A program made the position numbers and the translations under genes. A DNA stretch of 35,608 bases from Deltaproteobacteria bacterium (GTDB lineage Bacteria; Myxococcota; B64-G9): contig JAFDKH010000029.1 of the NCBI GenBank assembly GCA_019307065.1, forward strand, positions 1 to 35,608. The letters run 5' to 3'. Positions 1 through 25,236 of this stretch are shown here, in pieces; the first letter of the stretch is position 1; the number at the start of each line of letters is the position of its first letter. The notes below the pieces were generated by a model, which was given only the letters and a program-made list of their open reading frames with translations, ran no database searches and was not told the DNA's origin.

Positions 1-54
1 TGCGCTGGCTGCTGAACTCTTGAGAAACTTTCTGCGATCAAAACGTTTAGACAT
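1..54 (-). CDS. N-terminus of a Tat-exported protein (partial, runs off the window)
   Basis: Only the first 18 codons lie in the window. On the minus strand the ATG at 54-52 opens MSKRFDRRKFLKSSAASA. This has the twin-arginine consensus (R-R-x-F-L-K) followed by the start of a small-residue segment, so the product is probably folded in the cytoplasm and exported by Tat. A GAGGTG ribosome binding site lies just upstream of the ATG. The gene starts 12 bp after the stop of the PQQ-type propeller gene, in the same direction, so it is probably the next gene of that transcript. Many Tat substrates beginning this way are cofactor-containing oxidoreductases or hydrolases. The function cannot be assigned from 18 residues. 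Confidence 0.7.
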   Translation of the reverse strand, partial: MSKRFDRRKFLKSSAASA

Positions 55-66
55 AATAGCTACACC

Positions 67-1530
67 TCAGTCAGATTTGTCGGTCTTGATAAGCCAGACT
101 TCGCCTTGCCCGGTTTTATTGTGTTTGAATACGACTAGCCGGTTCGCCTTGACTTCGAGCACGCTGAAGCTACCCTTGAAGTTTGCATAAACGCGCCGCT
201 TGAGTCGATCGACGATGGTCAGTTCCTTGCCGTCGTTGGCGACCAGAAGCTTAGCGCCTGTGGCGACTATGTTCTTTCCAAGCCAGTCCATTTGCCAGGT
301 GATCTCGAGCTTGTCCGAATATGAAATAAGTTTGTTACCAACCGAGAACAAGCCGCCCTGGCGGTCACTCAAAAGGCAGGTCTGACCCTCGATTTTAATG
401 CTTTTTTGTACTTTGCCGCTGGCCGGGTCTAACAGTGCAAATTCAAGTGGTCCGCAGATATGCGAATAGCCGACTTTCCAGGCGGGGTCTTTTCTTCTCT
501 CTTCGACAAGCGAAAGGCTTACACCGCGTGGCAGAGTATAGTTCTTGGCATCGAGTTTGATTTCCCAGCGGGCTTGGCCTGTGTCGGCGGCATACAGTCC
601 GGCTTGACCCGGACGAATAACATAAAGACCCTTCGGTTTTTCAACCCAGGCTACCAGGGTTGGCAGTGTGTCGCCGCTGGATTTTGGGCCGCTGCTTTTT
701 TGCTGCCAGAGCAGCTGCCCGGTTTGGCAGGCGAAAACTTTTAGTGCCCCGTCTAAATTCCCTAACCAGCAGACCCGGCCATCGGAACTAATACCGCTCA
801 AATCGCGTACCCAATAGCTGAGGACGGCCTCCTGAGATCGCCAGACTTCCTGGCCGCTCCTGGGGTTGACAGCCACAACCATCTGGGGCCCGGCAAACCC
901 GTGCCGCTCGTCGCTTTTGGGGTTCTCTACCGTGGCCAGCCATAGCTCGCCGGCCTGTCCCAGGGGCTGCCCCTGCGGCCCGAAGCAACCCGACGAGGGT
1001 CCAAAGGTATCGTCTTCCATGCAGGTGTAGCTCAGCGAATATTTCGGGCCCAGGACCGCCCCGTCGGCACATGAACAAAACTGGAACTGGCAATCGCAGT
1101 TGATCGCACAGGTGGCGGCTTGAGTATCCAGGTAGCAGCCACCGGGGTTGTTCCTTCCCTGTTGAGAAGGAACGTCGTAGACTGCAACTCTTTTTCCCGA
1201 GCGGGCATTGAAAGTATAAAGTTGATTGCCGGCGTAGACAAAAAGTCTCTTTCCTGCCAGGTACAACCGATGAATTCCGATAGCCTTTTTCTGAAACTTT
1301 CTTTTCCACAGGCGTTTTCCCGAAGTCAGGCTGGTTGCAGAAATATGCAGGAAGTCCTCGTCCAGAGTTATGATCTGATTGCCATAAACAACACTATCCC
1401 AGGCGGGGACCTTGCTGATGATTTTCAAACTCAGGTTCTTGGGTTCAACGGATTTCGATTCAGCCTGTGCAATCAGAGGAAGTAAAGCAGTTAGTAAAAA
1501 CGCCAGCCATTTTGAACAAGGCTTCTTCAT
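67..1530 (-). CDS. Secreted PQQ-like beta-propeller protein with a Cys-rich insert
   Basis: The product is 487 residues from the ATG at 1530, which follows an AGGG ribosome binding site. The open frame extends further upstream but without a better site. Residues 1-25 form a Sec signal peptide (MKKPCSKW, a hydrophobic core, then a site near AQA). The rest shows repeated blade motifs of the PQQ-like/YVTN propeller type, such as LYTFNARSGK, VVAVNPRSGQEVW and LYAADTGQARWE. An insertion around residues 130-182 holds eight cysteines (132, 141, 145, 147, 152, 154, 170, 182), suggesting a disulfide-bonded or metal-binding loop exposed outside the cytoplasm. No catalytic residues for a quinoprotein dehydrogenase can be recognised, so a scaffold or binding role is more likely. 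It lies 62 bp after the C25 protease gene, same strand, and may be co-transcribed. The specific function is unknown. Confidence 0.85.
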   Translation of the reverse strand: MKKPCSKWLAFLLTALLPLIAQAESKSVEPKNLSLKIISKVPAWDSVVYGNQIITLDEDFLHISATSLTSGKRLWKRKFQKKAIGIHRLYLAGKRLFVYAGNQLYTFNARSGKRVAVYDVPSQQGRNNPGGCYLDTQAATCAINCDCQFQFCSCADGAVLGPKYSLSYTCMEDDTFGPSSGCFGPQGQPLGQAGELWLATVENPKSDERHGFAGPQMVVAVNPRSGQEVWRSQEAVLSYWVRDLSGISSDGRVCWLGNLDGALKVFACQTGQLLWQQKSSGPKSSGDTLPTLVAWVEKPKGLYVIRPGQAGLYAADTGQARWEIKLDAKNYTLPRGVSLSLVEERRKDPAWKVGYSHICGPLEFALLDPASGKVQKSIKIEGQTCLLSDRQGGLFSVGNKLISYSDKLEITWQMDWLGKNIVATGAKLLVANDGKELTIVDRLKRRVYANFKGSFSVLEVKANRLVVFKHNKTGQGEVWLIKTDKSD

Positions 1531-1592
1531 CGTCCCTATTGGACGGCATTTTGCAAAAGATTTCCAGAGGAAAGAAGTCTGGGGGTTATTGC

Positions 1593-4500
1593 TCAGGCCC
1601 GGCGCCTGATTGCTGCCAGTCCGAAAATCAACACAAGCAGTAGATACCCGGCCGGACGATTCGTTTGAGTGGCACAGCTGCATCCCTTGGGCTCATCATC
1701 CGGATTGGGATTGCCGGCCAAGACTTTCAGGGTAAGGTTTACAACTAATGCCTCGGCCCCATCGGCGGTGAGCAGAATTATACCCGAGTACTGACCGGCC
1801 GCCAGCTGCATATCCTTGGGGCTGACGGTCAGGGAGTCCCCGGCTGTTCCCGACAAGCTCGAGACCTCGAACCAGTCGCCCGATGGGGTTGCCGTCCAGT
1901 TGAGTTGACCGCCGCCCTGGTTTTCGATGCTGAGTGATTGCGGATCGGGCAAGGCCTGGCCGGCCGTCATTTCGAAAGACAGGGCTGCCGGGGAGATGGC
2001 AAACAGCGGGGCCGGTTCGGCCACCTCGAAGAAAATATCAATTGTCAGCGGTGAGTTTTTGGCGCCCGGGGCGATTACGGTGATTACTCCGCTATAGGTT
2101 CCCGAGTCCAGGGCACTCGGATCGGCTCGAACTTGAATCGAGCCCGGAGTCGTCCCGCTTGTTTCTGACAAGATGATCCAGTCGGCTGAAGTTTGTAAAG
2201 TGAAATCAAGCTCGCTTGCAGTCGTCACCTGGATATCAAGGTTGCTGGCGGCGGTCGGCTGGGTGCCGGCCTCGGCTGCGAAATTCAACTCATCCGGCAG
2301 AATGAAGAGTCGGTCGGCTTCCAGGCCGAGCTCAACGTCGCCCAGGAAGTTACAATAAGTTCCCCCGACTGAGGCCACGATACTTGGCCAGGCGGCGATG
2401 AAGGAATAGTCGGTGGGAGTCTGATCCCAATAGAGCAAACCCAAACCGATTGATTCGCCGGCCTGAAGCGCAAGTCGGCCGCTGGTCAGGTCGAAACTGA
2501 TTTCGACGATGCGCATTCCCATTTCGTAGCCGAAGGCCACTTCGACTTCAGGGACGTCTTCACTGAAGTCGCCGTACTGGGCGCCACTGCCGTCATCGAA
2601 GACCGGAATGAAGTAGACCGAACCGTCGTCTGCCACATAGTAGACACCTTCGTCGCCAGGCAACTGAGGCCAGTGGTTGTCGTTATTGGCATCAATGTAG
2701 ACGTTCAGGACGTCTCCCTCGTCGATGTCGTGATCGTCGCCGAGTAGCAGGGCCAGATACAATTTCTGATCATCGTGAGTCAAGCGCGCGGTCGATAACC
2801 CGGCCGCAACGAAGCCGACGTCGAGAAAACCGGCGCCCTCGTATTCTGAGCCGGGCACGCTTCCGTCAACGATTGGAGAAGTCGGAGTATGCGGAGCCGT
2901 TATCTTGGGAACGCTGTCAACCAGCAAATAGACTTCGATATATTTGGGCGAGTTGTCAGCATCGGCGGTCGTGACGGTTAGCTTGGCGCTGTGCTGGCCC
3001 TTTTCGAGCCCGGAAGTGTCAACCGACAGACTGATTTCGCCGGGGGCCGTGCCGGTTGCCGGGCTGGCTGTCAGCCAGGCCTGGTTGGAGCTGATTGTCC
3101 ATTCCAGTTCACCGCCGCCATCGTTGCGGATTGCGATGACCTGGTCGGCCGGGTTATCTTCGCCCTCGACTCCCAGGAAATATGGAGTCCAGCTGGGAAC
3201 ACCCAGCACGGGCTGGCTGCTGTTGCTCATGTGCAGTGAAACCTCGGGGTCGCCGAACAGGTTCAGCGAGTAGACCTGCCAGCGGATGTAGCGATCGTCC
3301 ACCCAACCGGCGACTTGTTCGCGAGAATAGGCGTGCATTTCAGAAAGTCTCTTCAGGCCTTTTCCGAAAGCGGCGTTCCAGAAATATCTCGGCAGTGTTT
3401 CACCGACCCCGTAGCGGGTGAACTGAATCGAAGCGAAGGCCCCGTGCTCGCCCAGCAGCAGGTGCTCGACAAACGAGTCTTGCGGGCTGACTTCATTTTC
3501 ACCGTTGAGCGGATCGAATCGGTTGTCAAAGGATCCTGGATAGCAGCCGCCGGTGTACTGAAAGAAGTAGTCGCTGTTGTTCATTCCGGCGTCGATATCA
3601 TCACAGGTCACGCGCATATTGTAGTTGGTATAAGAGTGGCCGACGTGGTGCAGGATATGTAGCGGGCCGTTCATGACATCCAGGATTTCTTGGGTGCCCC
3701 AGCAGTCTTTTTCGCAGACACCCGCATCGTACAATGTGCTGACTTCGAAAAACGGGTTTTCGGCAAAGCCGGCCAGGAAGCGGCCGCCGTCCCAGGTGCC
3801 GGTCCGCAGCGGCTCCATGTAGTGAGCCCCATAAGCTTCCGGGGCGAGCCATTCACCGGCCAGCCAGACATTCTTGATGTAATTGGCGGATCTTGAATTT
3901 TGGTAGGCCAGGGTCTTGCGCACGAAATTGGAAATCTCGGTGCAACTATCGGCCGGTACGCGGCCGACTAAAACCTCGGCCAGTAAATCGGGCTCATCTG
4001 TTTCTTCGCCGAAGACGTCATCCAGGTCGGCGTTGAAAGTGCCGTCTAGGCAGGCATAGTACAGATCCGACGGCAGGTTCAATTCATCACCACCGTATTC
4101 AATGTTCCCCCATAGCCCCCTGACCGGCACGATAACCGCCTCGGTTTCGCCGCCGACTTCTTCCAGATCGGCATCCCCGGCCAACAAAACATAATCGGTG
4201 GCGTGGTTTTCGTACATGTCGCGGATGAAGTTACGTACTTTCTCAGCGTCGTCATTGCCTTCATAGCCGCTGCGAATCTCGGCCATGGTTTTTATCAAAG
4301 TAGAAATTCCGCGTGAGTTCTTCTCGGTCGTCAGGGTTTCAAGAGTATAGTCGCCCTTGCACTCGGCAAGAGCCTGGCTGGTGACGATTACGTAGCGGTA
4401 GTCGTCGTCGAGCAGCGGTTTTTTCACGAATGGATAATCCTCAATGACTGCCGGGTTGACAACCAGGCGCCGGATAGCCGCGTTATCACGCTCGAGCCCG

Positions 4501-5087
4501 CGAAAACGAGCCCGGAAGTTCTTGATCAGACTGCCGGGGATGCCTGACTGCTCGGCTTCGAGCTCGGTCACGATCGTAATTTGCAGGGCCGGGGCGTAAG
4601 CAAGCCTGCCGGAGTGCGGTGCGAAGACTACCGGTCTTAGCTTGACCGGCAATATTTCGAATCCGCGTTTGAATTGCAGACTCTGCGCTTGACCGATCTT
4701 TGCAGGATAGCTGGCCCTGCTAGAGTAGATTGCCGGATCGGGGGCAGTGAATGGTCGCGGTCCCTGATGGGAGGGCGGGTATAACTTTTGAGCGGGAAAC
4801 ACAATATGAGTTCCCGACATTTGGACTAGCTCGGTCGGCAAAACGTTGACTGAAACGACCCTGTGCCCGGGGGGCAGCAAAACCTGAACCACTTTAGAGG
4901 GCAGGGCCGGGGAACCCGGCTGGGCCTGATTCAAATAGCCCTTGATGCGGACATGACTGTAGCCCTGACTGTCCTTGTATTCTTGGACAGCCGGAATAGT
5001 AACCTGGATATCGAACTGTTCGGCCTGGGCCATTGAAGTCCAGACTAGTCCGAGCATGACCAGCCCAATCTTGGATAGCAGTTTCAT
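1593..5087 (-). CDS. Gingipain-like C25 cysteine peptidase with BACON-like domains and a MYXO-CTERM-like anchor
   Basis: The product is 1164 residues. The ATG at 5087 was chosen because GGGAGGAA precedes it and it opens a signal peptide (MKLLSKIGLVMLGL...AQA). Residues ~24-200 resemble the beta-rich prodomain of C25 proteases. The catalytic part shows the clan CD pair: His484 in HHVGHSYTNYN and Cys515 in TGGCYPGSFD. Then follow a BACON-like domain (~645-735), a CBM9/DOMON-like beta sandwich (~740-905), and two more BACON-like domains (~910-1120) with the recurrent WTxxxSxDWxxxSxxSG pattern. The C-terminus has GCSC, a hydrophobic helix (GYLLLVLIFGLAA) and IRRRA, resembling a MYXO-CTERM sorting tail. 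Family knowledge suggests a secreted, probably surface-anchored endopeptidase cleaving after Arg or Lys, but the specificity is not visible here. It stands 124 bp downstream of the lipoprotein gene, so it could share that transcript or have its own promoter. Confidence 0.9.
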   Translation of the reverse strand: MKLLSKIGLVMLGLVWTSMAQAEQFDIQVTIPAVQEYKDSQGYSHVRIKGYLNQAQPGSPALPSKVVQVLLPPGHRVVSVNVLPTELVQMSGTHIVFPAQKLYPPSHQGPRPFTAPDPAIYSSRASYPAKIGQAQSLQFKRGFEILPVKLRPVVFAPHSGRLAYAPALQITIVTELEAEQSGIPGSLIKNFRARFRGLERDNAAIRRLVVNPAVIEDYPFVKKPLLDDDYRYVIVTSQALAECKGDYTLETLTTEKNSRGISTLIKTMAEIRSGYEGNDDAEKVRNFIRDMYENHATDYVLLAGDADLEEVGGETEAVIVPVRGLWGNIEYGGDELNLPSDLYYACLDGTFNADLDDVFGEETDEPDLLAEVLVGRVPADSCTEISNFVRKTLAYQNSRSANYIKNVWLAGEWLAPEAYGAHYMEPLRTGTWDGGRFLAGFAENPFFEVSTLYDAGVCEKDCWGTQEILDVMNGPLHILHHVGHSYTNYNMRVTCDDIDAGMNNSDYFFQYTGGCYPGSFDNRFDPLNGENEVSPQDSFVEHLLLGEHGAFASIQFTRYGVGETLPRYFWNAAFGKGLKRLSEMHAYSREQVAGWVDDRYIRWQVYSLNLFGDPEVSLHMSNSSQPVLGVPSWTPYFLGVEGEDNPADQVIAIRNDGGGELEWTISSNQAWLTASPATGTAPGEISLSVDTSGLEKGQHSAKLTVTTADADNSPKYIEVYLLVDSVPKITAPHTPTSPIVDGSVPGSEYEGAGFLDVGFVAAGLSTARLTHDDQKLYLALLLGDDHDIDEGDVLNVYIDANNDNHWPQLPGDEGVYYVADDGSVYFIPVFDDGSGAQYGDFSEDVPEVEVAFGYEMGMRIVEISFDLTSGRLALQAGESIGLGLLYWDQTPTDYSFIAAWPSIVASVGGTYCNFLGDVELGLEADRLFILPDELNFAAEAGTQPTAASNLDIQVTTASELDFTLQTSADWIILSETSGTTPGSIQVRADPSALDSGTYSGVITVIAPGAKNSPLTIDIFFEVAEPAPLFAISPAALSFEMTAGQALPDPQSLSIENQGGGQLNWTATPSGDWFEVSSLSGTAGDSLTVSPKDMQLAAGQYSGIILLTADGAEALVVNLTLKVLAGNPNPDDEPKGCSCATQTNRPAGYLLLVLIFGLAAIRRRA

Positions 5088-5211
5088 GGGTTCCTCCCTT
5101 TCCATTTCATTTCGTCGCATTCATCGGTTTCTGTTGATTCTGGCGTATTTAGGCGTTGCATACACAGATAGACACGTAAGCTAAGCAATCGGGCAGGTCG
5201 TTAGGAAAAAA

Positions 5212-6438
5212 CTAGAAACAAAGGTCTTCGACGTGTTTTTCCACCCGGAAGGTGGGGAAAATCTCCAACTCCATGGGGAACTGCGGCAGGCATATCCGGT
5301 AGACCGGGTCACATGTGTAATCTTCGTCCTTGCGGCAATCGTCGCGCGATTCGCATTGTTTGAACCAGTAGCTGGTATAGACAATCAGGTAGGTGGCTGT
5401 TTGTGGCATGCAGCCAAACGAAGTATCGGCATGGGTGCAGTATCCATCACTGAAGTCTTCCCCGGCCAGTTGATGCAGGCAGTTTCCATCGTCGAACACG
5501 TTTGCACAATCGGAATCTTGCTGGCAGGAACGGCCCAATTTTTCGCCGCACTCCGGATCGGCATACCAGTTCTGGTAGACCGAGCAGTAGGTGTTGTAGG
5601 GGGGCGTGGCCTGGTAGGGCCAACAGGCTTTACAGGAGTACTCGAGTCGGTAATCAAGATCAATACAGGCGTATCCGGGCCGCAGACAGTCCTGATTGCT
5701 GACACAGCTTTTCAACCAGAAAGCTTCACCTGTTTGGGCAACTGTTCCGCCGGCCGGGGAGCAGCCTTGCTCGGTTGCTTCGAGTGAGCAATAGCCACCC
5801 GGCACTTCGAAGCTGCCCAGGCTTGTCAGACATTCGCCTCCGGCGCATTCTGAATCGGATTTACAGCTGGCCCCCAGTTCGGGACCGCAGTCCTGATCGC
5901 CGGTAGTCGGTTTAAATTCCTCATTGCAGTTGAGCGGGATCGGCACGATGGTGAACCCTTTGGGGACCGGCAGACCGGTCGGCGATTGCTCGCTGGTCAG
6001 GGCGCGGGGGGCATACAGCAGAACATGATCCCTGGCTCCCCCGACCAGTTCCGAAGGCTGGGCATCTTTGGTGAAGCGCCCGTTTTCATCGCGGTCTTCA
6101 TAGACCAGGATCAGGGCCAGGCCGTAGGCTGGCTGACCATCCACCAGGTGGGCTGCCTGAGGCGGATAAAACACATTTATTTCAAAAGTAGACGGGAACT
6201 CGATCGTAACCGAGGCCGAAGTTTGCTCTACCAAATCTTCAGCCGCAACTCTGGTTTGGCCACTCGGGCTCCAAAACAGCGATACACGAAATTCATGTTG
6301 ACTGTCCTGGCTGCCCAAATAGGAAGTTACTTGTCCTTTAAAACTGAACAGCGGTTCGCCCAGATATTCATGGCCGGCCAGTGGATTTCCGCAGCCACAA
6401 GCCAGGATTGCCAACAGGGTTGTCAGTCGGCCGAGCAT
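5212..6438 (-). CDS. Cys-rich lipoprotein with duplicated disulfide-type repeats
   Basis: The product is 408 residues. The ATG at 6438 follows GGAGGTT and overlaps the stop of the caspase gene as TGATG, so translation is probably coupled. Residues 1-14 form a lipoprotein signal with lipobox I-L-A-C (Cys14). An N-terminal beta-rich part (~15-170) is followed by two long Cys-rich repeats. One starts near CGPELGASCKSDSECAGG, the other near CGEKLGRSCQQDSDCANV, and each continues through a W-x-K-x-C block to a D-C...C end. This DxDC pattern is common in secreted proteins of Myxococcota and Bradymonadales and probably forms disulfide-locked modules outside the inner membrane. No enzyme motif is visible. 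Coupling to the caspase/barrel gene suggests that the two act together at the outer membrane; that is inference. Confidence 0.88.
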   Translation of the reverse strand: MLGRLTTLLAILACGCGNPLAGHEYLGEPLFSFKGQVTSYLGSQDSQHEFRVSLFWSPSGQTRVAAEDLVEQTSASVTIEFPSTFEINVFYPPQAAHLVDGQPAYGLALILVYEDRDENGRFTKDAQPSELVGGARDHVLLYAPRALTSEQSPTGLPVPKGFTIVPIPLNCNEEFKPTTGDQDCGPELGASCKSDSECAGGECLTSLGSFEVPGGYCSLEATEQGCSPAGGTVAQTGEAFWLKSCVSNQDCLRPGYACIDLDYRLEYSCKACWPYQATPPYNTYCSVYQNWYADPECGEKLGRSCQQDSDCANVFDDGNCLHQLAGEDFSDGYCTHADTSFGCMPQTATYLIVYTSYWFKQCESRDDCRKDEDYTCDPVYRICLPQFPMELEIFPTFRVEKHVEDLCF

Positions 6439-8021
6439 CAGAACCTCCAGCCCAGCCCGCCGGCTGCCCACCAGGTGAACGGGCTGGCAGTTTTTGAACC
6501 CACTTCGGCACCGGCAACGACTATGCTACGGCGAAAGACGTTTGTCAGCGGGCCGCCTTCGATTAGAAGTGTCAGCTCGGGGATGATCTCGATTTCCATA
6601 CCAACCAACCCGCCGAAGCCGAAGCTCCAGGTATAGCGATAGGGCGCCTGGCCGGAAGTCGAAAACTCCTGAGTCTGATATGCCACTTCGAGCATGATCC
6701 CGAGCGAGAAACTGACCCGCTCGAAGTCTATAAAGCGTTGGGCGGTCAGGCCAATCCCGTACTCTGAGTGAATCATGCTAGTCGGCCCGTCGGGGGATTC
6801 AATGTTTGCTCGCGAAAATCTGATCCGCAACCCGAAACTCAGCCAGGAAAGATCTAAAGAAGTGCCCAGCACCAGATGCGGGCTGACCGATTGGCCGCTG
6901 AGCATGGCGCCCCGGGCGCCGCCCAGGACATAGACCCCGTTGACAACCTTGCGATTACCGCCGCCTTTTCGAAGCAGGCGGGCATATTCGACGGTCTCGT
7001 GACTGACCTTGCTCAGTTCGACTTCCTGTCCCGATTTCAATTCGAGTTCGTATTCCAGGTAATGAGTCTGAGAACGTTTTTGAATGAAGTAGTTGCCGGC
7101 CGGTAGTACCAGACTGGTACCTTCCGGGCCGACCGAGACCTCGGCGGTAACCGGGCCGTTTTCGTCGTCTTCGATTACCAGGTAAAAGCCCGATTCGGCG
7201 ATTACCAGGCGGCCGGAACGGTTCTTATCATTGGCCAGTCTGGTCAGGATCAGCTCGCCTTTGCCCTTGATGTCGTATTGATAGGTCGGGTGCTGGAGCT
7301 TCAATGTCCGGCCGCTCGAGCTAAGAGTTTGTTGATAGGTATAGCGATAGGCTTCGTCAAGAGTTACCCGGCCGTCACGATCACTGTCGGCTGCGCCGCG
7401 CAGCGCATTGGCCAGGTGATGAGAAAAGAACGAAGCCCGCAGTTGCTCGGACTCGTAACTGTCCTCGCCGGCCGCGCTGGAAGTGATGATGGCGAGGCCT
7501 TCGGCCGAGAGGCGGTTGTGCAATTTGATTTCGAACTCTGCAGCCTCAGTTGCGCCTTTGACTCGCGTCACTCCACCCGAGCGGCACGAATCGACGATTA
7601 GCAAGCGGACAGCCGCCGGCGATCCGGCCAGGATGGTTTTAATCTCGTCAAAGACCAGGCTTGTGTCGCCCAGATGCAGGCCGCTGGCGTCCGCGTGGCC
7701 CGAGAAATAAACGATCAGGACTGAATCAAGTGCCACGGCCTTTTTGGTTGCCCGGATACGGGCATTCATGTCCAGAATGACCTTGCGAAAAGTAGTTGAA
7801 TCTTCGCCCAGAGCCAGGACGGTATTCTGAGCCGGAACTCCACCCAGACGTTGCATGATGGCGGCAATCTCGGTGGCGTCTTTCTCGGCATACCTTAAGG
7901 CTGGTTCGCCGGCCAGACCCAGATTGTTGCCGGCCGAAACCATATACAGATCTGTGGCCAGCGCATCGCTAGAAGCGATTAGCCAAGTGATTAGCAAAAA
8001 ACTGCAGTATGCATTTCTCAT
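6438..8021 (-). CDS. Secreted caspase-family (C14) peptidase fused to a predicted outer-membrane beta-barrel
   Basis: The product is 527 residues. The ATG at 8021 overlaps the anti-sigma stop as ATGA and opens a signal peptide (MRNAYCSFLLITWLIASSDALA). The longer open frame starting at 8057 would bury this signal. Residues ~24-270 are a caspase fold with the catalytic pair His109 (YFSGHAD) and Cys146 (IVDSCRSGG). A calcium-loop-like segment DSDRDGRVTLDE lies at 212-223. A beta-sandwich-like section follows (~270-350). Residues ~360-527 are alternating hydrophobic strands ending in GLGWRF, the terminal Phe typical of outer-membrane barrels. The protease would therefore face the periplasm or the outside, tethered by its own barrel. 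It lies between the anti-sigma and lipoprotein genes with overlapping codons on both sides. Substrate unknown. Confidence 0.88.
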   Translation of the reverse strand: MRNAYCSFLLITWLIASSDALATDLYMVSAGNNLGLAGEPALRYAEKDATEIAAIMQRLGGVPAQNTVLALGEDSTTFRKVILDMNARIRATKKAVALDSVLIVYFSGHADASGLHLGDTSLVFDEIKTILAGSPAAVRLLIVDSCRSGGVTRVKGATEAAEFEIKLHNRLSAEGLAIITSSAAGEDSYESEQLRASFFSHHLANALRGAADSDRDGRVTLDEAYRYTYQQTLSSSGRTLKLQHPTYQYDIKGKGELILTRLANDKNRSGRLVIAESGFYLVIEDDENGPVTAEVSVGPEGTSLVLPAGNYFIQKRSQTHYLEYELELKSGQEVELSKVSHETVEYARLLRKGGGNRKVVNGVYVLGGARGAMLSGQSVSPHLVLGTSLDLSWLSFGLRIRFSRANIESPDGPTSMIHSEYGIGLTAQRFIDFERVSFSLGIMLEVAYQTQEFSTSGQAPYRYTWSFGFGGLVGMEIEIIPELTLLIEGGPLTNVFRRSIVVAGAEVGSKTASPFTWWAAGGLGWRF

Positions 8022-8794
8022 TTTGCTTTTCGTATCCTGAATGAACGTACCCTGCAATCTGCGGGGGCTGCGATACCTCCCGGGCCGGTTATCTTGAGTT
8101 GGGCAGCCTCAAATGGTTGTTGACAGTGTACCAGATGAACCCACTCTTCGCCCAGCGAGTCGTCTAACCGAATTGCACCGGGAAGTTTTTGGCCAAGACC
8201 TTTTGAAATCGATTTGGAAGTCTTAGACCCGTCGGTCGGAAACAAGGTATACATCCGGCCCGATTGCTCGACTCCGACAATCAGGATATTACCCGCCCGA
8301 ACCAGATCAACTTCGAAGCGCAGCCGGTCTCCGGGATTGAAAACGTCTCCATTGACTACTTGCTCAACCCGGCCTTTGTGTTCACGATAAATCGATAGCT
8401 GCAGGGTACCTTTGGTGCGCAGCTGATCCTGGCCGGGTTCATGCCAGACAGCCAGGCCGATGGTTACAAAAAGTATCAGGACGGCAGTTGCGGCGATGGC
8501 AATTTCCCATCTCAGCCAATTGAAAGTCAGAAGTCCCGGGCTGGATTTTTCCTCAGGTCGGCAGGCTGCTTCGATCTTGTGGCGCATGGTCTGCCGGTCG
8601 AGTTCGGTGAAGGCATCAAACCCTTTTTCGCGTAAGGTCAGTCTTTGGCGGCACTCTAAACAAGTAGCCAGATGCTCCTTGATTCGATTGTTTTCTTCGG
8701 CAGGTAGCTCACCGAAGTGAAAACGGTCCAGATTGATCTCCGAAGGGCAGTCCGGGTTGCGGCCCAATTTACTCACCAGGTTCAGATCATCCAT
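8018..8794 (-). CDS. Zinc-finger transmembrane anti-sigma factor with DUF4384-like extracytoplasmic domain
   Basis: The product is 258 residues from an ATG preceded by GGAGGAA. The N-terminus carries the zinc-binding anti-sigma signature His41-x3-Cys45-x2-Cys48 (HLATCLECRQR), with Cys16 upstream. One transmembrane segment spans about 96-117 (WEIAIAATAVLILFVTIGLAVW). The outer domain (~130-258) contains the DUF4384-like pattern of a beta-sandwich: FNPGDRLRFEVDLVRAGNILIVGVEQSGRMYTLFP. It begins 57 bp after the ECF sigma gene and overlaps the caspase gene. The cytoplasmic half is expected to hold the ECF sigma factor inactive until a signal is sensed outside. DUF4384-like domains are often found with caspase-family proteins, which fits this neighbourhood. 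Confidence 0.9.
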   Translation of the reverse strand: MDDLNLVSKLGRNPDCPSEINLDRFHFGELPAEENNRIKEHLATCLECRQRLTLREKGFDAFTELDRQTMRHKIEAACRPEEKSSPGLLTFNWLRWEIAIAATAVLILFVTIGLAVWHEPGQDQLRTKGTLQLSIYREHKGRVEQVVNGDVFNPGDRLRFEVDLVRAGNILIVGVEQSGRMYTLFPTDGSKTSKSISKGLGQKLPGAIRLDDSLGEEWVHLVHCQQPFEAAQLKITGPGGIAAPADCRVRSFRIRKAK

Positions 8795-8851
8795 TTGTTC
8801 CTCCAGCTAGATTGACACCTGGGAATATCTTTTGGGTAAAATCGCCGATCA

Positions 8852-9358
8852 TCAGGCACCCCTATTGGACGGGGGTAGATTGATGAATTCGGCTGCCCAG
8901 TTCTTGAATCGCTCGAGCAAATTACCGACTGTCCGCCTCGACACACCGAGAATATCGGCAGCTTCTGCATGACTCATGCCGTCAATAAGAACGTAAATTG
9001 CCGCGCGACCGCATTCTTCATCAGCTTCGGCCAGCAAACGCCGCATCAAGATCAGACCATCGGGAGTCGGCGTGGCCGCAAAGGATTCCGGATGAGGAGG
9101 CATATTTTCTTCCCATAGCTCCTGGCGCCTGCGCCGATCGCGGATCCGGTTGAAACAGTAGTTGGTTGTGATTCTGCTCAGCCAGGTATACAGATCTGAG
9201 CGTTGCTCGAAAGACCCGGCATTTTTATATGCCCGGATGAAAACTTCCTGAGTGGCTTCTTCGGCGTCGGCATGATTGCCCAGCAGATAGCGGGCCCGAC
9301 GATAAACGGCCGGGCCATATTTATCGAAGGCTGCAGCAATATCAATGCTTTTCTTCAA
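8852..9358 (-). CDS. ECF RNA polymerase sigma factor
   Basis: The product is 168 residues. The start is TTG (9358-9356), overlapping the stop of the upstream gene as TTGA. No ATG gives the full region 2, so this start is preferred despite a weak ribosome binding site. Sigma region 2 covers about 9-80, including HADAEEATQEVFIRAYKNA and the -10 recognition stretch TWLSRITTNYCFNRIRDRRRR. Region 4 is about 105-160, with the helix-turn-helix MSHAEAADILGVSRRTVGNLLERFK. The next gene is its likely membrane anti-sigma factor. It probably directs transcription of this cluster and of genes elsewhere. No autoregulated promoter could be identified by eye. Confidence 0.93.
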   Translation of the reverse strand: MKKSIDIAAAFDKYGPAVYRRARYLLGNHADAEEATQEVFIRAYKNAGSFEQRSDLYTWLSRITTNYCFNRIRDRRRRQELWEENMPPHPESFAATPTPDGLILMRRLLAEADEECGRAAIYVLIDGMSHAEAADILGVSRRTVGNLLERFKNWAAEFINLPPSNRGA

Positions 9359-10182
9359 TCCGGCCCCGGCTGGCGCCTGGCTACCCCGATCACATTGGGT
9401 ATCGGCCAGAATTTTTTGTTAGTGTCACTTTCAAAAAAACCCGTTTCATAGCTGCCGAACTTTGCCAGCTTAGTATCGCCGGATGTCAGGAATAGAGAAG
9501 CCTCCGGGCCGCCTTCTAAGTACATCATGTTGCGAATGTCGAGCGGCAGTTTCATGAGCATCTTGATGAAATTGTGCACGCGATAGGGAGAGCGGCTGAA
9601 AATGAAGATAACCCGGTCGTGCTTGTCCATGGCGACGACGACCATGCTCCACTTCTTGGGTTGCAGGCTCCATGTATTTTTCTGATGGCAATCGACCATG
9701 CGGATGCCCTGGATCAGGGTCTCGTACTGTTTGCTGAGCTGAGCGAAGTTTTGACAACGCCGATCGATGATTTGGACAGCCGCCAGATCCTTGTTTTTCG
9801 GGTTGAAGGCTAAAAAGGCGTTTTGGCCTGCCAGCTTCAGGTTATTGACATGCTCGAAATTTTTCATGAAGAAAGTCGCTCTGGATTGATCGCCTTCGGC
9901 TTCGAACATGCCGGCGTTGACCACCAAGGTTAGATCGTGCTGCTTGGCCCAGGCCGGGGCTGTCTGCTTCCGGCCGCCCAATTGGGAGACCATCAAGAGT
10001 TTCAATTGCTGATGCTTAGGGTTGATGCGAACCAAGGTGAATTTTGAATCGGCGTGCGAAGATTTTTTTGAGGCGCTTACAAAAGCCAACTCCAGGCCCG
10101 GTTCCAACTCCTTGAACTGGATCGCTTCAGGGGCAGCCTGGCTGACAACGATCAACAAAAAAGCTGTAAAAAAACCGGCCAT
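9355..10182 (-). CDS. Secreted phosphodiester glycosidase-like protein (NAGPA/DUF2233 family)
   Basis: The product is 275 residues if it starts at the ATG at 10182, which has AGGG about eight bases upstream and opens MAGFFTAFLLIVVSQA, a signal peptide core. An in-frame GTG at 10194 (adding VRVF) would supply a positive N-region, and a TTG at 10233 is also possible. The body shows the family hallmarks: a strand followed by TLVVNAGMF, FFMKN and a late LEGGPEASLFL motif. This fold occurs in the enzyme that uncovers mannose-6-phosphate and in bacterial exopolysaccharide phosphodiester glycosidases. A role in trimming cell-surface polysaccharide is plausible but unproven. Its stop overlaps the TTG of the ECF sigma gene, so it is probably the first gene of that operon. 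Confidence 0.85.
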   Translation of the reverse strand: MAGFFTAFLLIVVSQAAPEAIQFKELEPGLELAFVSASKKSSHADSKFTLVRINPKHQQLKLLMVSQLGGRKQTAPAWAKQHDLTLVVNAGMFEAEGDQSRATFFMKNFEHVNNLKLAGQNAFLAFNPKNKDLAAVQIIDRRCQNFAQLSKQYETLIQGIRMVDCHQKNTWSLQPKKWSMVVVAMDKHDRVIFIFSRSPYRVHNFIKMLMKLPLDIRNMMYLEGGPEASLFLTSGDTKLAKFGSYETGFFESDTNKKFWPIPNVIGVARRQPGPD

Positions 10183-10238
10183 GAAAACCCTCACGAAGTA
10201 TAAAACCAATATCCTTATTGGTGCGCGGCTCAAGTGCG

Positions 10239-11783: not shown

Positions 11784-12521
11784 CGCAGAAAGTACAGACG
11801 CCTGGAATTTCCCAGCCAGTGGTACGCCATTCTCGAGGAAAAAGTGCCTTTCTATCAGGCATACTCCGACGAGCAACGTGAGCGTTTTTGCACACTGGTC
11901 AAGATTTTTGTCTGGGAGAAACACTTTATTGGCGCACAGGGGATGGAGATTACCGACGAAGTCAAGGTAGTCATCGCCGCTTCGGCTTGTCGCTTGATTC
12001 TCAACCTGGGAATCAAATACTACAATCGCCTGACTGAAATAGTCGTTTATCCCTACGTCTACACTCATCCAGATCAAGAAGGCGTCATTTATGGTGAAGC
12101 TCACGCCTGGGGCACGGTCGTGTTGTCCTGGCCGGCTGTGATGCACGGTATTCAAAATCCCTACGATGGCGAAGCCACCGGGGCCCATGAATTTGCGCAT
12201 GTACTCGATCGGGCCGACGGAGTCTTCGACGGTACGCCGCTGCTTCGAACAGGCGCAGCCTATGGACCCTGGGTACGAGTCATGAGCAGGCATTTTCTGG
12301 CGTTACAAAAAAGAAATAAAAAGCAACGAAAAGTACTGCGTATGTACGGCGCAACCAATGAGGCCGAGTTTTTTGCGGTGGCAACCGAAAGTTATTTTGA
12401 AAAACCCGAGAAAATGAAACGTCTGACCCCTGAGCTCTATCAAGTCATGCTAAGATTTTACGGGCCGGACCTGGGATCTTCTTCGCAAGACAATCCAGAC
12501 TCCGACCAGGAGGAGGGCTAA
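11757..12521 (+). CDS. mtfA: MtfA-like zinc metallopeptidase (M90 family)
   Basis: The product is 254 residues. The ATG at 11757 was chosen because MFGILRAIRRRKYRRLEFPSQW matches the usual beginning of the family; the open frame extends upstream into the ATPase gene without meaning. The zinc site is HEFAH (144-148), with Glu211 in the NEAEFFAVATESYF block as the probable third ligand. Other family blocks are ITDEVKVVIAASACRLIL, IVVYPYVY and VVLSWPAVMHG. In enterobacteria MtfA is a cytosolic aminopeptidase that binds the glucose repressor Mlc; that regulatory role should not be assumed here. Its last 72 bases overlap, on the opposite strand, the end of the MYXO-CTERM propeller gene. Confidence 0.93.
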   Translation: MFGILRAIRRRKYRRLEFPSQWYAILEEKVPFYQAYSDEQRERFCTLVKIFVWEKHFIGAQGMEITDEVKVVIAASACRLILNLGIKYYNRLTEIVVYPYVYTHPDQEGVIYGEAHAWGTVVLSWPAVMHGIQNPYDGEATGAHEFAHVLDRADGVFDGTPLLRTGAAYGPWVRVMSRHFLALQKRNKKQRKVLRMYGATNEAEFFAVATESYFEKPEKMKRLTPELYQVMLRFYGPDLGSSSQDNPDSDQEEG

Positions 12522-14261
12522 GAACAACGTTCTGGGCGTTGTCGGCTTAGACGAACAAGCACAGGCGGTCTCGGCCACCGGTTCGCTGATACAACGGCCG
12601 CGGTTGCCGCAAACAAAGCCGTGCATGCACTCAGTATCGGTAAAACAATCCGACACGCAACAGGCGTCTCTGCAATAGCTCCCGCTGGGACATTGACTGT
12701 CGTAGGCGCAATACTCACACGCAGAATGATCGTTACCGGAACCAGGGTCGGATCCGGCATCTATACCTTCGTCGGCAGCGCTATCCGCTCCGGCGTCAGA
12801 AATACCGTCGGCCTGTCCATCAGCTGAACCGTCTTGTTCTTCCGGCACACAGCGACCGCGTTGATCGCACACAAAGGGAGCCATACAGTCAGAGTTGTCG
12901 TCACAGTCTGAAGTGCAATAGTCGCCGTCGCAGTAATTACCCTGGGGACACTCTACGTCGTCCGAACAAGGTATCAGCGTCGAGCCGCCCCCGTCCTGAT
13001 CGCCACCGGCATCGACTCCGGCATCGGTTCCGGCATCGGTTCCGGCATCGACTCCGGGATCGGATCCGGGATCGGATCCGGCATCGATTCCGGCATCGGA
13101 TCCGGCATCGACTCCGGCATCGGATCCGGCATCGACTCCGGCATCGATCCCGCCGTCTTGTTCGATCTCGAGACAATCGGCCCCACGGATGTCGGTGAAA
13201 TGTGCAATCGGGGCGAATTTATTGTCATAAGAAGCATGTCCGCCGACGATCAATCCTTCACATAAACCAGGCCTGAAGGCTACCGCGTTGAGGTAGGTAT
13301 TGTTTGTAGCGCCCCAGGGAGCGGCGTCGAAACCGGGGATGCTGACTTCCCTGAAGTCGGCATTCAAGAAGGTTCCATTGTCCGCCACAAATTCGTTGAC
13401 CGTCCCGACCAGGTTACTTCCGTAGCAACGCCCGACAATCAGCGCCCGCGACCCGTCAGCGTTGAAGGCGATCCCGGCCATCGAGCTGCCTCCCGGAAGC
13501 TCGGCCTTGGTCCAAACAAAGCCATCCCATTTCAAGGCATTGTCAGACCAATCGACTATCACGCCGTAGCCTTCGAGCGGGTGATGGTCGGCTGCGGAAA
13601 CATTCGAGGCGCTCGGGTTGGTCGATAGCAGACGGTTTTCCCAGGGGGCCGGCGGGCGATAGGCAACCACATCGGCTGCGTTTTCACAGATTGGTATCAG
13701 GGCTTCGAGCCCATCGGGCCGCCAAGATACGTCGCAGGGCCCCGAGAAATTGGCGGCCGCCCCGGTAGTCACCGTCCGGGTTTCGGGGTCGTAATCATAG
13801 GCATAGACTATATGGGCGGTGCTGTTGTAGCCGATGATCACGGCCTTGGCTGCGTCAGGAGTAAAATCCACTCCGCGCAGGGAAATACCTGGTTTGGAGC
13901 AGTCCGCAAGGAGATCGACTGAACCGGTTTCATGATCGTAGCGATAGACGCGACCCTCTTCGGTGTTGCCTGAAGCGTACCAGCCGACAATCAGGGCCCC
14001 GCTGCCGTCTGGATTGAAGTCCATATGATCGGGCCTGAAATTCGTAAGCTCAGTCAGCTGGCTGACGCTCCAGTCGGCGGCTAAGATTTTGAGGATTTTA
14101 CCGCCTGACTCGATCGTCAGGGCATATTCGCCGTCAGGGTGCCAGGCCACGTCAACCAGATGGCCGATTGTGAACATTTGCCCAAGAGCTTCGTAATCAT
14201 AGTAAGCGCCGGCCTTGTTCGACCAGACAACCAGCAAAGCAATCAGCAGCAGTTTGCGCAT
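12450..14261 (-). CDS. Secreted beta-propeller protein with Asp-Ala-Gly repeats, Cys-rich modules and MYXO-CTERM-like tail
   Basis: The product is 603 residues. The start has GAGGAGAA upstream and opens a signal peptide (MRKLLLIALLVVWSNKAGA). Residues ~25-360 are WD/YVTN-like propeller repeats (VAWHPDGEYALTIESG, MDFNPDGSGALIVGW, VSWRPDGLEALIPI). A low-complexity linker of about 50 residues made of (D-A/P-G-x) units follows (~370-418), encoded by a 12-bp minisatellite. Next come two similar Cys modules (DVECPQGNYCDGDYC... and DSQCPSGSYCRDACC...), separated by a second Asp/Gly-rich spacer. The end, ACACSSKPTTP, a hydrophobic helix and LRRRS, resembles a MYXO-CTERM sorting signal, extended by eight extra residues. 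It is probably a surface-displayed binding protein of unknown ligand. It is divergent from the phnP-like gene, and its 3' end overlaps mtfA. Confidence 0.88.
   Translation of the reverse strand: MRKLLLIALLVVWSNKAGAYYDYEALGQMFTIGHLVDVAWHPDGEYALTIESGGKILKILAADWSVSQLTELTNFRPDHMDFNPDGSGALIVGWYASGNTEEGRVYRYDHETGSVDLLADCSKPGISLRGVDFTPDAAKAVIIGYNSTAHIVYAYDYDPETRTVTTGAAANFSGPCDVSWRPDGLEALIPICENAADVVAYRPPAPWENRLLSTNPSASNVSAADHHPLEGYGVIVDWSDNALKWDGFVWTKAELPGGSSMAGIAFNADGSRALIVGRCYGSNLVGTVNEFVADNGTFLNADFREVSIPGFDAAPWGATNNTYLNAVAFRPGLCEGLIVGGHASYDNKFAPIAHFTDIRGADCLEIEQDGGIDAGVDAGSDAGVDAGSDAGIDAGSDPGSDPGVDAGTDAGTDAGVDAGGDQDGGGSTLIPCSDDVECPQGNYCDGDYCTSDCDDNSDCMAPFVCDQRGRCVPEEQDGSADGQADGISDAGADSAADEGIDAGSDPGSGNDHSACEYCAYDSQCPSGSYCRDACCVSDCFTDTECMHGFVCGNRGRCISEPVAETACACSSKPTTPRTLFLALLLVGVWIVLRRRSQVRPVKS
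13009..13152. repeat. 12-bp minisatellite, 12 units
   Basis: Twelve tandem units close to GCATCGACTCCG, with variation mainly in the middle bases (GGTTCC, GGATCC, GATTCC). They encode the Asp-Ala-Gly-x linker of the propeller protein on the minus strand. Unit length is a multiple of three, so gain or loss of units changes linker length without a frameshift. All units are in register and no spacer-type sequences occur between them. Confidence 0.95.
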
Positions 14262-16345: not shown

Positions 16346-16984
16346 TTGTTTTTTCATAAACATAAGAAATCAGCTGAAAAATTCGAAGAACAGACATTGG
16401 GATATCTGGATGCTCTGTACGGGACAGCCCTGAGAATGACTGGTCAAGAAGCCGCAGCCGAGGATCTGGTGCAGGATACCTATCTCAGGGCAACTCGTTT
16501 TCGCGACAAGTTCCAGCCTGGCACTAATCTCAAGGCCTGGTTGTTCAAAATGATGGTCAACTTGTTTATCAACAACTATCGGCGCGAGAGGCGTTCGCGT
16601 GAGATCAGTCAGGGTACCGAGCGCCAGGACATGGTCGAACGGACAGTAACTCCTGGAAAACTCAGCGCGGCATCCGCACCCGAAGAACACTTTTTCGAGA
16701 AACTGTTCTCCGATGACGTGGTCGCGGCTATCGACGACTTGCCGCACGATTTTAAAATGGTTGTCTTATTGGTCGATATCAACGAGTTTTCATATGCGCA
16801 GGTTGCTGCGATTCTGAGCATTCCGGTCGGCACGGTAATGTCGCGCTTACACCGCGGTCGACGACTATTGCGTTCGGCATTGTACTCCTTTGCGGTTGAG
16901 GAAGGCTACATCAAGCCAAAAGACGAGGCGATCGACCAGCCAGCCGATCTCGCCAGCTTTCGAGAGCGTAAACGTAAAATGTAA
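16346..16984 (+). CDS. ECF RNA polymerase sigma factor (second in the window)
   Basis: The product is 212 residues. It starts at TTG (16346) with AGGAG eight bases upstream; no in-frame ATG occurs before region 2. Region 2 covers ~18-85 (LYGTALRMTGQEAAAEDLVQ, then the WLFKMMVNLFINNYRRERR recognition helix). A linker of about 45 residues follows. Region 4 (~140-195) has the motif FSYAQVAAILSIPVGTVMSRLHRGRRLL. A C-terminal extension of about 25 basic residues (VEEGYIKPKDEA...RERKRKM) follows. The cognate anti-sigma gene begins 15 bp downstream. The pair is probably an envelope-stress circuit separate from the one at 8018-9358. Confidence 0.94.
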   Translation: MFFHKHKKSAEKFEEQTLGYLDALYGTALRMTGQEAAAEDLVQDTYLRATRFRDKFQPGTNLKAWLFKMMVNLFINNYRRERRSREISQGTERQDMVERTVTPGKLSAASAPEEHFFEKLFSDDVVAAIDDLPHDFKMVVLLVDINEFSYAQVAAILSIPVGTVMSRLHRGRRLLRSALYSFAVEEGYIKPKDEAIDQPADLASFRERKRKM

Positions 16985-16999
16985 CTTAGGGGCCAAGAC

Positions 17000-17755
17000 G
17001 TGGATTGTCGGGAAGTTGAAAAATTTATTCAGGTTTATATCGACGGCGAATTGGATACCGAAGATCAAACCATCATTGAGGAGCACTTGCGTCAATGCCC
17101 TGCCTGTCTGGCCCAGGCGGATTACGAGCGAAGATTTGTTGAAGCCGTCAAGATACGGGTGCCCAAAGTCGCGGCCCCGGCTTCATTTAAGACAAAATTG
17201 CTTACGAACATGGAGAAAGCTCCCAAGCAACGGCCTTTTACCCGGCGTCTGATGTGGAGTTCAATTCCTGCGGCTGCAGCCCTGGCTCTAGTGATCACTT
17301 TCACCTGGACCGTAACCAGCGGATTTTCTCCCCTGGTTAGTGCGGCCGTCGAGCAGCATTCCCTGGAGCCGGATGTTGATGTCAACTCGTCCGACTCGGT
17401 AACGGTGGAAAACTGGTTCAAGAAAAAAGTGGATTTCAATGTAACTTTGCCGAGGTTTCAGGCTCGCAAAGCAAATTTAATCGGGGCTCGTCTGAGCCGT
17501 CTGGCTGAGCAACGAGCGGCCCTGATTCGCTATCAATGCGGGCTCCGTCACTTCAGCCTGTTCGTAGTTACCGATAACGGTGGAGAATTAGATACAAAAA
17601 CATGTCAGCGAGTAAAAAACAGGGAATTTTGCGTAACCGAAAGAAAGGGCTATACGGTTGTAATCTGGCGTTCTCGCGGGCTTATTTATTCTATGGTGGG
17701 CGACTCAGCCCCTCAGGAAATGATGGATGTCATCTCTTCTGACTCTTCCTTCTGA
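17000..17755 (+). CDS. Zinc-finger transmembrane anti-sigma factor
   Basis: The product is 251 residues, starting at GTG with AGGGG eight bases upstream. The zinc finger is Cys3 and His29-x3-Cys33-x2-Cys36 (HLRQCPACLAQ). A transmembrane helix spans about 84-106 (LMWSSIPAAAALALVITFTWTV). The outer domain (~130-245) has KANLIGARLSRLAEQRAALIRYQC and GYTVVIWRSRGLIYSMVGD. I recognise this as the sensor-type domain found in a family of zf-HC2 anti-sigma factors, where two cysteines and a His are often present; Cys residues are also visible here (RYQCGL, TCQRV, EFCVTE). It should sequester the sigma factor encoded just upstream. Confidence 0.92.
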   Translation: MDCREVEKFIQVYIDGELDTEDQTIIEEHLRQCPACLAQADYERRFVEAVKIRVPKVAAPASFKTKLLTNMEKAPKQRPFTRRLMWSSIPAAAALALVITFTWTVTSGFSPLVSAAVEQHSLEPDVDVNSSDSVTVENWFKKKVDFNVTLPRFQARKANLIGARLSRLAEQRAALIRYQCGLRHFSLFVVTDNGGELDTKTCQRVKNREFCVTERKGYTVVIWRSRGLIYSMVGDSAPQEMMDVISSDSSF

Positions 17756-24059: not shown

Positions 24060-25145
24060 TCAGTTTTCCTGTTTGAGATAGACCGTTTGAGTGGGAAAGG
24101 CGATCTCAAGACCCAATTCCTCGATTTTTTCCATTATCAATAGATTAACTTCCTGGCGCACATTCAGGTATTCAGCCCAGACTTTGCTCTTGGAAAAATA
24201 ATATATAAAAATGTCCAGAGTAGAGTCATTGAAATCTGTGAAATAAACCAGCCAATAATCCTGGCTGACACCCTCGTGATTGCGTAAAATTTCACGAATG
24301 GCCTCAACCGCTTCTTTCATTTGCTTGGATTTGGCGTCATAACCGATTCCGATTGTCATTTTAATCCGACGGATCGGTCGGGCATCCATGTTTTCGACGA
24401 CTGAATTGGCCAGTTTGGAATTGGGGATTGTGACAAGTGTTTTTTCGAAAGTTCGGATTCGGGTTGACCGGAAACCGACATCCTCTACGTAACCCTCTGC
24501 CCCAGGCAGTTTAATCCAGTCTCCGATCTGAAAGGGACGATCGGTAAAGATAGTCACCGAACCGAAAACATTGGCCAGCGAATCTTTGGCTGCCAGGGCG
24601 AAGGCCAAACCGCCTAATCCCAGGCCGGCCAACAACGAGCTGACCGAATAGCCCAGGTTTTGGATAATCATGATCAGGGCTAAGGCCAGAATGATTGCTC
24701 TGACTATTTTGCGTACAATCGGAATCAACTGATCGTCGAGCTGAGTTTCGGTTCTGTCGGTGAAACGGCGCAGGTAGACGACTAGAATGTCGACTGCCGA
24801 AAATAAAAACCAAGCTACCGAGACGATTAGTAAACTGTTGAACAACCCGTTCAAGAAGCGAGGCACATTGATCGGTTCGACCGGCAAGGTCAAGATCTCT
24901 AGCGCCAGGTAGAACCCGATTACGTAGACGGCAAACAGAAAGGGTTTGCGGACACTGGTGACGATTCGATCGTCGGCTTCGTTTTTGGTTCTCTTGGCCC
25001 ATTTTTTAAGCCGCGAATCGACAATAAATCGGACGACTACCCGGACTATGAAAGTGGCTAAGATGGCCAGACAAAAAAGAAGATACTGCCATAATGAGTT
25101 GCCCCAGAACGTCTGATCGAGTGTTTCGGCAAATCTCTCCCACAT
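24060..25145 (-). CDS. MscS-family mechanosensitive ion channel
   Basis: The product is 361 residues with GGGAGGAT before the ATG. Hydrophobic helices lie at roughly 18-42, 72-90, 105-125 and 145-165. They are followed by the pore helix TM3 with the Gly/Ala-packed LAGLGLGGLAFALAAKDSLANVFG, then the beta domain (FQIGDWIKLPGAEGYVEDVGFRSTRIRT) and the alpha/beta C-terminal cage. It opens under membrane tension to release solutes at osmotic downshift. It is a close collinear paralogue of the gene just upstream (25237-26328), so the pair is a tandem duplication. It is followed by coaX at 11 bp. Confidence 0.93.
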   Translation of the reverse strand: MWERFAETLDQTFWGNSLWQYLLFCLAILATFIVRVVVRFIVDSRLKKWAKRTKNEADDRIVTSVRKPFLFAVYVIGFYLALEILTLPVEPINVPRFLNGLFNSLLIVSVAWFLFSAVDILVVYLRRFTDRTETQLDDQLIPIVRKIVRAIILALALIMIIQNLGYSVSSLLAGLGLGGLAFALAAKDSLANVFGSVTIFTDRPFQIGDWIKLPGAEGYVEDVGFRSTRIRTFEKTLVTIPNSKLANSVVENMDARPIRRIKMTIGIGYDAKSKQMKEAVEAIREILRNHEGVSQDYWLVYFTDFNDSTLDIFIYYFSKSKVWAEYLNVRQEVNLLIMEKIEELGLEIAFPTQTVYLKQEN

Positions 25146-25236
25146 GCCTAAATCCTCCCTCTATGGCCAAACAGGTTGCCACGAAAGGGATCTAGAATCA
25201 ACGGAATGTGAGTGCCAAGGAATTTTTAGCGGGGGT

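Follow-up and report, generated by a model that had tools for sequence, protein, structure and literature searches.

A sigma factor, anti-sigma and caspase module of Myxococcota in which a predicted outer-membrane caspase may cut its own anti-sigma

What does a caspase do beside a sigma factor? The role of bacterial caspase homologues has long been a puzzle, and in myxobacteria many of them are encoded next to sigma factors. The stretch of DNA analysed here (the window, bases 1-35608) is the left end of the 61.8-kb contig C464, from a 6.6-Mb Myxococcota genome in 471 contigs (GCA_019307065.1); base 1 of the window is the start of the contig. Its minus strand encodes an extracytoplasmic function (ECF) sigma factor, a membrane anti-sigma, a C14 caspase with a C-terminal barrel and a Cys-rich lipoprotein. 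We propose, and give it an even chance, that these four proteins form one functional unit in which the caspase acts on its own anti-sigma as site-1 protease. The preliminary description of this DNA had raised the anti-sigma as a possible substrate of the caspase, and the idea is now backed by a (R)xK-G motif found in the sequences of both proteins.

The sigma factor (9358-8852; PF04542, 66.4 bits) has Sigma70_r2 and Sigma70_r4_2 domains, without a region 3, and is the first gene of the conserved core. The adjacent gene (8794-8018) encodes a protein with an N-terminal zf-HC2 domain (H41xxxC45xxC48, that is HxxxCxxC; 27.4 bits), one transmembrane helix and a periplasmic DUF4384-like domain (22.3 bits, under the cut-off of 27). 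The two proteins thus qualify as an ECF sigma factor and a class I anti-sigma.

The caspase gene (8021-6438) matches PF00656 with 36.3 bits, for a cut-off of 21.4. The catalytic dyad, His121 (codon at 7695-7697) and Cys158 (7584-7586), is intact, and invariant in 93 of 93 caspases. The profile, the alignment and Foldseek all place the protein in the peptidase family C14, with a caspase fold and its His/Cys dyad. In the AlphaFold2 model (built on 77 homologues, mean pLDDT 90.9), a signal helix (the signal peptide) precedes the caspase domain, which is followed by a small beta domain and, last, by an eight-stranded barrel (6441-6944) which ends in GWRF. A Foldseek search with this model retrieves human caspases, legumain and a calcium-bound metacaspase, as well as OmpA/NspA; the barrel is therefore predicted to be OmpA-like and to lie in the outer membrane. 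Since the caspase domain precedes the barrel, the catalytic domain should face the periplasm.

The alignment of 84 anti-sigma homologues shows that a glycine is present in all of them on the predicted periplasmic side of the transmembrane helix, close to the membrane. The residue that precedes it is K in 77 sequences, R in four and M in three, and an R is found two positions upstream of the K site in 61 of the 84. This (R)xK-G motif is the best conserved feature of the whole anti-sigma, above the zinc ligands (82-85%). A KG lies within 30 residues of the transmembrane helix in 72 of 82 anti-sigmas, compared to 15 in shuffled sequences. In the window, the motif is R126-T127-K128-G129 (8408-8419), preceded by L125, and the predicted cleavage would fall between K and G. 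The caspases have the same pattern, T-R-V-K-G, nine residues after the catalytic cysteine, with K in 92 and G in 93 of 93 sequences. In the window caspase (R165-V166-K167-G168, 7554-7565) it stands at the start of a low-confidence loop which the AlphaFold2 model does not place. The loop after the catalytic cysteine is the site where caspases are cut, on maturation, between their large and small subunits, and RVKG is predicted to be a self-processing or pseudosubstrate site.

The pairing of the two motifs persists in more divergent modules (L265, L266, L269, L271, L278 and L279). No juxtamembrane motif was found in DUF4384 proteins other than anti-sigmas, nor in the only two clear cases of DUF4384 anti-sigmas without a caspase nearby (L272 and L275). 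The window contains an internal control, a second ECF sigma/zf-HC2 anti-sigma pair at 16346-17755 (plus strand), without DUF4384 or caspase, whose unrelated anti-sigma (17000-17755) has no juxtamembrane KG.

The residue before the glycine (P1) also covaries between the two partners: there are 108 K/K pairs, and the five caspases that lack K at this site are each paired with an anti-sigma that lacks it too (Fisher test, 4e-6, uncorrected). Among the variants, four loci have a M-G anti-sigma and an altered caspase linker: RSRG in L117 (G000:C132), RPLG in L112 (G003:C183), GRVKG in L116 (G000:C377) and GRGKG in L136 (G004:C331).

These observations suggest the following scheme. The zinc-finger domain of the anti-sigma would retain the sigma factor at the inner membrane. 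The caspase would be exported and tethered to the outer membrane by its OmpA-like barrel, its catalytic domain would lie on the periplasmic side, and self-cleavage in the RVK|G loop would bring it to maturity. Upon a presumed signal, the mature caspase would then cut the anti-sigma at (R)xK|G in the periplasmic linker just outside the membrane, which would be site 1 of a regulated proteolysis. The freed sigma factor would transcribe its own operon and other targets. Downstream of the module, this genome and one relative also encode a C25 protease that has a putative surface-sorting tag; its gene may be a target of the sigma factor or a passenger. Prokaryotic caspase homologues are described, in the available excerpts of PMC6426788, as cleaving after basic residues.

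Two further parts are candidates for the control of the module. The loop DSDRDGRVTLDE of the caspase (D224 to E235, 7353-7388) has an invariant first D and last E in the alignment and is flanked by two predicted helices in the model; this EF-hand-like arrangement makes a control of the caspase by Ca2+ plausible. The other candidate is the Cys-rich lipoprotein (6438-5212, lipobox LAILAC), which has a conserved N-terminal domain. It has no match in Pfam, and its confident AlphaFold model (90.2) has no match in the PDB from which a known fold could be assigned (best E value 0.028).

The module is conserved well beyond the window. The survey covers 79 loci from named genomes (Myxococcota assemblies) and the window, and the subsets that can be tested depend on the flanking sequence available. 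The sigma and anti-sigma genes are directly upstream of C14 in 64 of the 73 loci with enough upstream sequence, and C14 is followed by a lipoprotein homologue at most 300 nt away in 31 of 76. Wherever the contig extends far enough, same-family genomes (G001, G003, G005) and genomes from other families (G010, G025, G031, G034) preserve the order sigma, anti-sigma, C14, lipoprotein. Culturable relatives, such as Archangium, Pyxidicoccus and Myxococcus (L143-L145, L207), are among the carriers of the module. This bears out the earlier view of an ECF/anti-sigma/caspase/Cys-rich lipoprotein unit at the cell surface. The lipoprotein that follows the core is a feature of one clade; the core conserved across Myxococcota is the sigma factor, the anti-sigma and the caspase, and the genome studied here has at least eight such modules.

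The junctions are tight, as had been claimed from the glycosidase gene upstream to the lipoprotein gene. The glycosidase and sigma genes overlap by TTGA, a gap of 57 nt separates sigma from anti-sigma, and the next two junctions are overlaps, ATGA between anti-sigma and C14 (given an ATG start at 8021) and TGATG between C14 and the lipoprotein (given an ATG start at 6438). With these overlaps and the conserved order, the sigma and C14 genes appear to be arranged as an operon, of the sigma/metacaspase type.

Variants of the module also occur. The caspase gene is upstream of the sigma/anti-sigma genes in L118 (G000:C98) and L104 (G004:C591). Two records labelled as other phyla, L212 (Comamonas sp. 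KCTC 72670) and L142 (a Schekmanbacteria metagenome-assembled genome), contain a caspase module whose two proteins both have KG, which could be explained by transfer, mislabelling or misbinning.

Several observations weigh against cleavage of the anti-sigma by its neighbour. A protease tethered to the outer membrane may fail to reach a linker at the inner membrane. The KG may be conserved for structural reasons, or because it serves in docking. The anti-sigma of L268 keeps KG without a caspase within 2.7 kb, on a contig which holds two other caspases. Caspases of the main subfamily also keep KG when they have no neighbouring anti-sigma, so that the motif in the caspases goes with the subfamily. 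Seven loci combine an anti-sigma without K (four R, three M) with a K caspase; the three M loci are the clearest counter-examples, and one of them is the orthologous module in G005. When placed on the tree, the covariation at P1 amounts to two independent changes (p about 0.05). The covariation at P3, which looked strong (Fisher test, 2e-9), was set aside, since it largely reflects the clades (on the tree, p 0.17). In view of these tree-corrected tests, the conservation and the sharing of the motif are strong, while the covariation is only suggestive.

The caspase could instead be an effector of the sigma factor and not its activator: the pair would sense envelope stress by another route, the caspase and the lipoprotein would be targets that act on other surface proteins or in developmental lysis, and the KG of the anti-sigma would be structural. 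ECF operons often include their own targets, the caspase gene follows the sigma gene, with junctions that overlap, and caspases without a nearby anti-sigma exist; moreover, a role in autolysis has been suggested for such operons (Asplund-Samuelsson et al., 2012, PMC3501461, available excerpts). However, this explanation gives no reason why the best-conserved residues of the anti-sigma match the loop motif of the caspase, or why the other DUF4384 proteins lack the motif, and we consider it possible but doubtful. A variant in which the caspase would not only cut the anti-sigma but also sense the assembly of the outer membrane is, in our opinion, unlikely. A caspase not yet inserted would be near the inner membrane, mature at RVK|G and cut the anti-sigma at RxK|G, and once inserted it would be out of reach. 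If so, the assembly of barrels or a breach of the envelope would be reported without a separate DegS, and it would be clear why each myxobacterial genome has many copies of a sigma operon with an outer-membrane caspase.

The gene order also recalls FecIRA, in which a sigma factor and an anti-sigma are followed by an outer-membrane TonB-dependent transporter with a periplasmic N-terminal domain. Here too a sigma factor and a single-pass anti-sigma precede an outer-membrane protein whose N-terminal domain is periplasmic, as in fecI-fecR-fecA. The barrel would then be the sensor, in contact with the anti-sigma through a caspase domain that serves for binding, and proteolysis would be secondary. 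Yet a barrel of eight strands is too small for a TonB-dependent gate, the model has a protease domain and no plug, so that the protein does not qualify as a TonB-dependent receptor, and the dyad, needless in a mere docking module, is invariant. We find such signalling improbable.

We judge equally improbable the dedicated surface proteolysis system put forward in the preliminary description, in which C14, lipoprotein, C25, a propeller and a Tat protein would be jointly under extracytoplasmic control. All the genes are indeed colinear on one strand. The C25 protein (5087/5120-1593, likely start ATG 5087), a gingipain-like protease with BACON domains, belongs to the peptidase family C25 (PF01364, 151 bits, with the catalytic HVGHS and GGCYPG intact). 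The same C14-lipoprotein-C25 order and gap recur in the same family, in G005:C387 (locus L141), and a C25 gene also adjoins a different sigma/anti-sigma/caspase module (L127, G008:C18, 9523-16937), directly after it; in that module R-G replaces K-G in both the caspase and the anti-sigma. The gap between lipoprotein and C25 (about 91-124 nt) has a single 10-nt block in common with that of G005, ACGTGTCTAT (5168-5177), a possible C25 promoter element; the similarity is weak, a 10-nt word being shared in 58 of 5000 shuffles. No terminator-like site was found in this gap by a scan which in general yields no more sites than in shuffles. An ECF promoter common to the sigma operon and C25 was sought by eye upstream of the orthologous sigma genes, and no clear common motif emerged.

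On the other side, C25 is adjacent in only two (the window and L141) of the 20 lipoprotein-bearing loci with 3 kb of downstream sequence. Both peptidases are abundant in the family of this genome, with 57 C14 and 54 C25 genes counted in nine genomes; three pairs lie within 2 kb, compared to 0.5 expected, and two of these are one orthologous event, so that once this event is counted once the adjacency is barely above chance. The propeller and glycosidase genes are unlinked in the relatives, where their homologues are found elsewhere. Neighbourhood comparison had been named beforehand as the test of the dedicated system, with scattering of the downstream genes as the outcome that would speak against it, and C25 and the propeller are largely scattered. 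C25 is therefore a local addition and not a part of the module, given its rarity at these loci, the abundance of both families and the near-chance number of pairs; it may be an accessory, either target gene or passenger. Nor are the two peptidases unrelated, as had been stated: both belong to clan CD, and the C25 profile matches one C14 protein of the same genome (G000:C404).

At the C-terminus of the C25 protein, GCSC... is followed by a hydrophobic stretch and then by RRR, an arrangement which by eye resembles the tail of MYXO-CTERM proteins, sorted by myxosortase (PMC11980579). Unlike these, the C25 protein is under the cut-off of the model TIGR03901 and not among the matches of its genome, which are 44 proteins, while its orthologue in G005 passes (21 vs 20 bits). 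The genome has four CPBP-family proteases. Of the 11 C25 paralogues examined in it, one is truncated at a contig end and the ten others all have a MYXO-CTERM-like tail. A role as PorU, the sortase of the type IX secretion system, was considered for C25 and rejected (NCBIfam PorU, 33.9 bits for a cut-off of 420).

Each of the genes of the preliminary description was found in its place and with the family that had been given, in the order NAGPA, ECF sigma, zf-HC2/DUF4384 anti-sigma, C14 with barrel, Cys-rich lipoprotein, C25, propeller and Tat gene on the minus strand. The NAGPA-type phosphodiester glycosidase (10194/10233-9355; PF09992, 47.8 bits) is first, in a place which is not conserved. 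The PQQ-type propeller protein (67-1683) has its likely start at ATG ~1533, and the start of a Tat-exported protein (1-54, Tat signal MSKRFDRRKFLKSSAASA) belongs to a gene cut by the contig end. Elsewhere on the minus strand of the window, a 603-aa protein without Pfam family (12450-14261) has a C-terminus over the MYXO-CTERM cut-off (25.7 bits), and two tandem genes (24060-26328) encode MscS-type mechanosensitive channels of 361 and 363 aa.

How does the module compare with known systems? Asplund-Samuelsson et al. (2012, PMC3501461, available excerpts) reported sigma-70/metacaspase operons in Myxococcus xanthus, Anaeromyxobacter, Haliangium and Sorangium, and four of the five metacaspases of M. 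xanthus are in sigma operons. The preliminary description was right that such neighbourhoods are known. The module resembles these operons in that a sigma gene and a caspase homologue are in one operon. It differs from that account, whose available excerpts mention no barrel, anti-sigma motif or lipoprotein partner and offer no mechanism beyond possible autolysis. The new elements are the predicted anchor in the outer membrane, a lipoprotein conserved as partner of the module, an EF-hand-like loop and, most notably, the (R)xK-G common to caspase and anti-sigma. Among open-access full texts, none was found that brings together caspase, ECF, anti-sigma and myxobacteria and describes this module, an absence which is weak evidence.

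In the RseA/DegS/RseP system, a single-pass anti-sigma is first cut on the periplasmic side and the site-1 protease is an inner-membrane serine protease. The present anti-sigma also has a single transmembrane helix, and its first cut is predicted to be periplasmic, but its site-1 protease would be a cysteine protease tethered to the outer membrane and encoded beside its substrate. The DegS/RseA precedent is cited in the available excerpts of PMC10028731, which deals with a closer parallel in type III-E CRISPR: Csx29, a clan CD protease, cuts Csx30 and thereby relieves the ECF-like sigma factor CASP-sigma. In both cases a clan CD protease is set against the inhibitor of an ECF-type sigma factor, here with a cleavage which is only predicted. 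The Csx29 system is different in that it is cytosolic, RNA-activated and of the CHAT family, without a membrane anti-sigma or an outer-membrane anchor. The shared motif reduces the question of what these caspases do to a simple test, whether the caspase cuts its own anti-sigma at K|G. If it does, the module would be a caspase-controlled transcription switch that works across the envelope, parallel to the CRISPR Csx29 system but independent of it.

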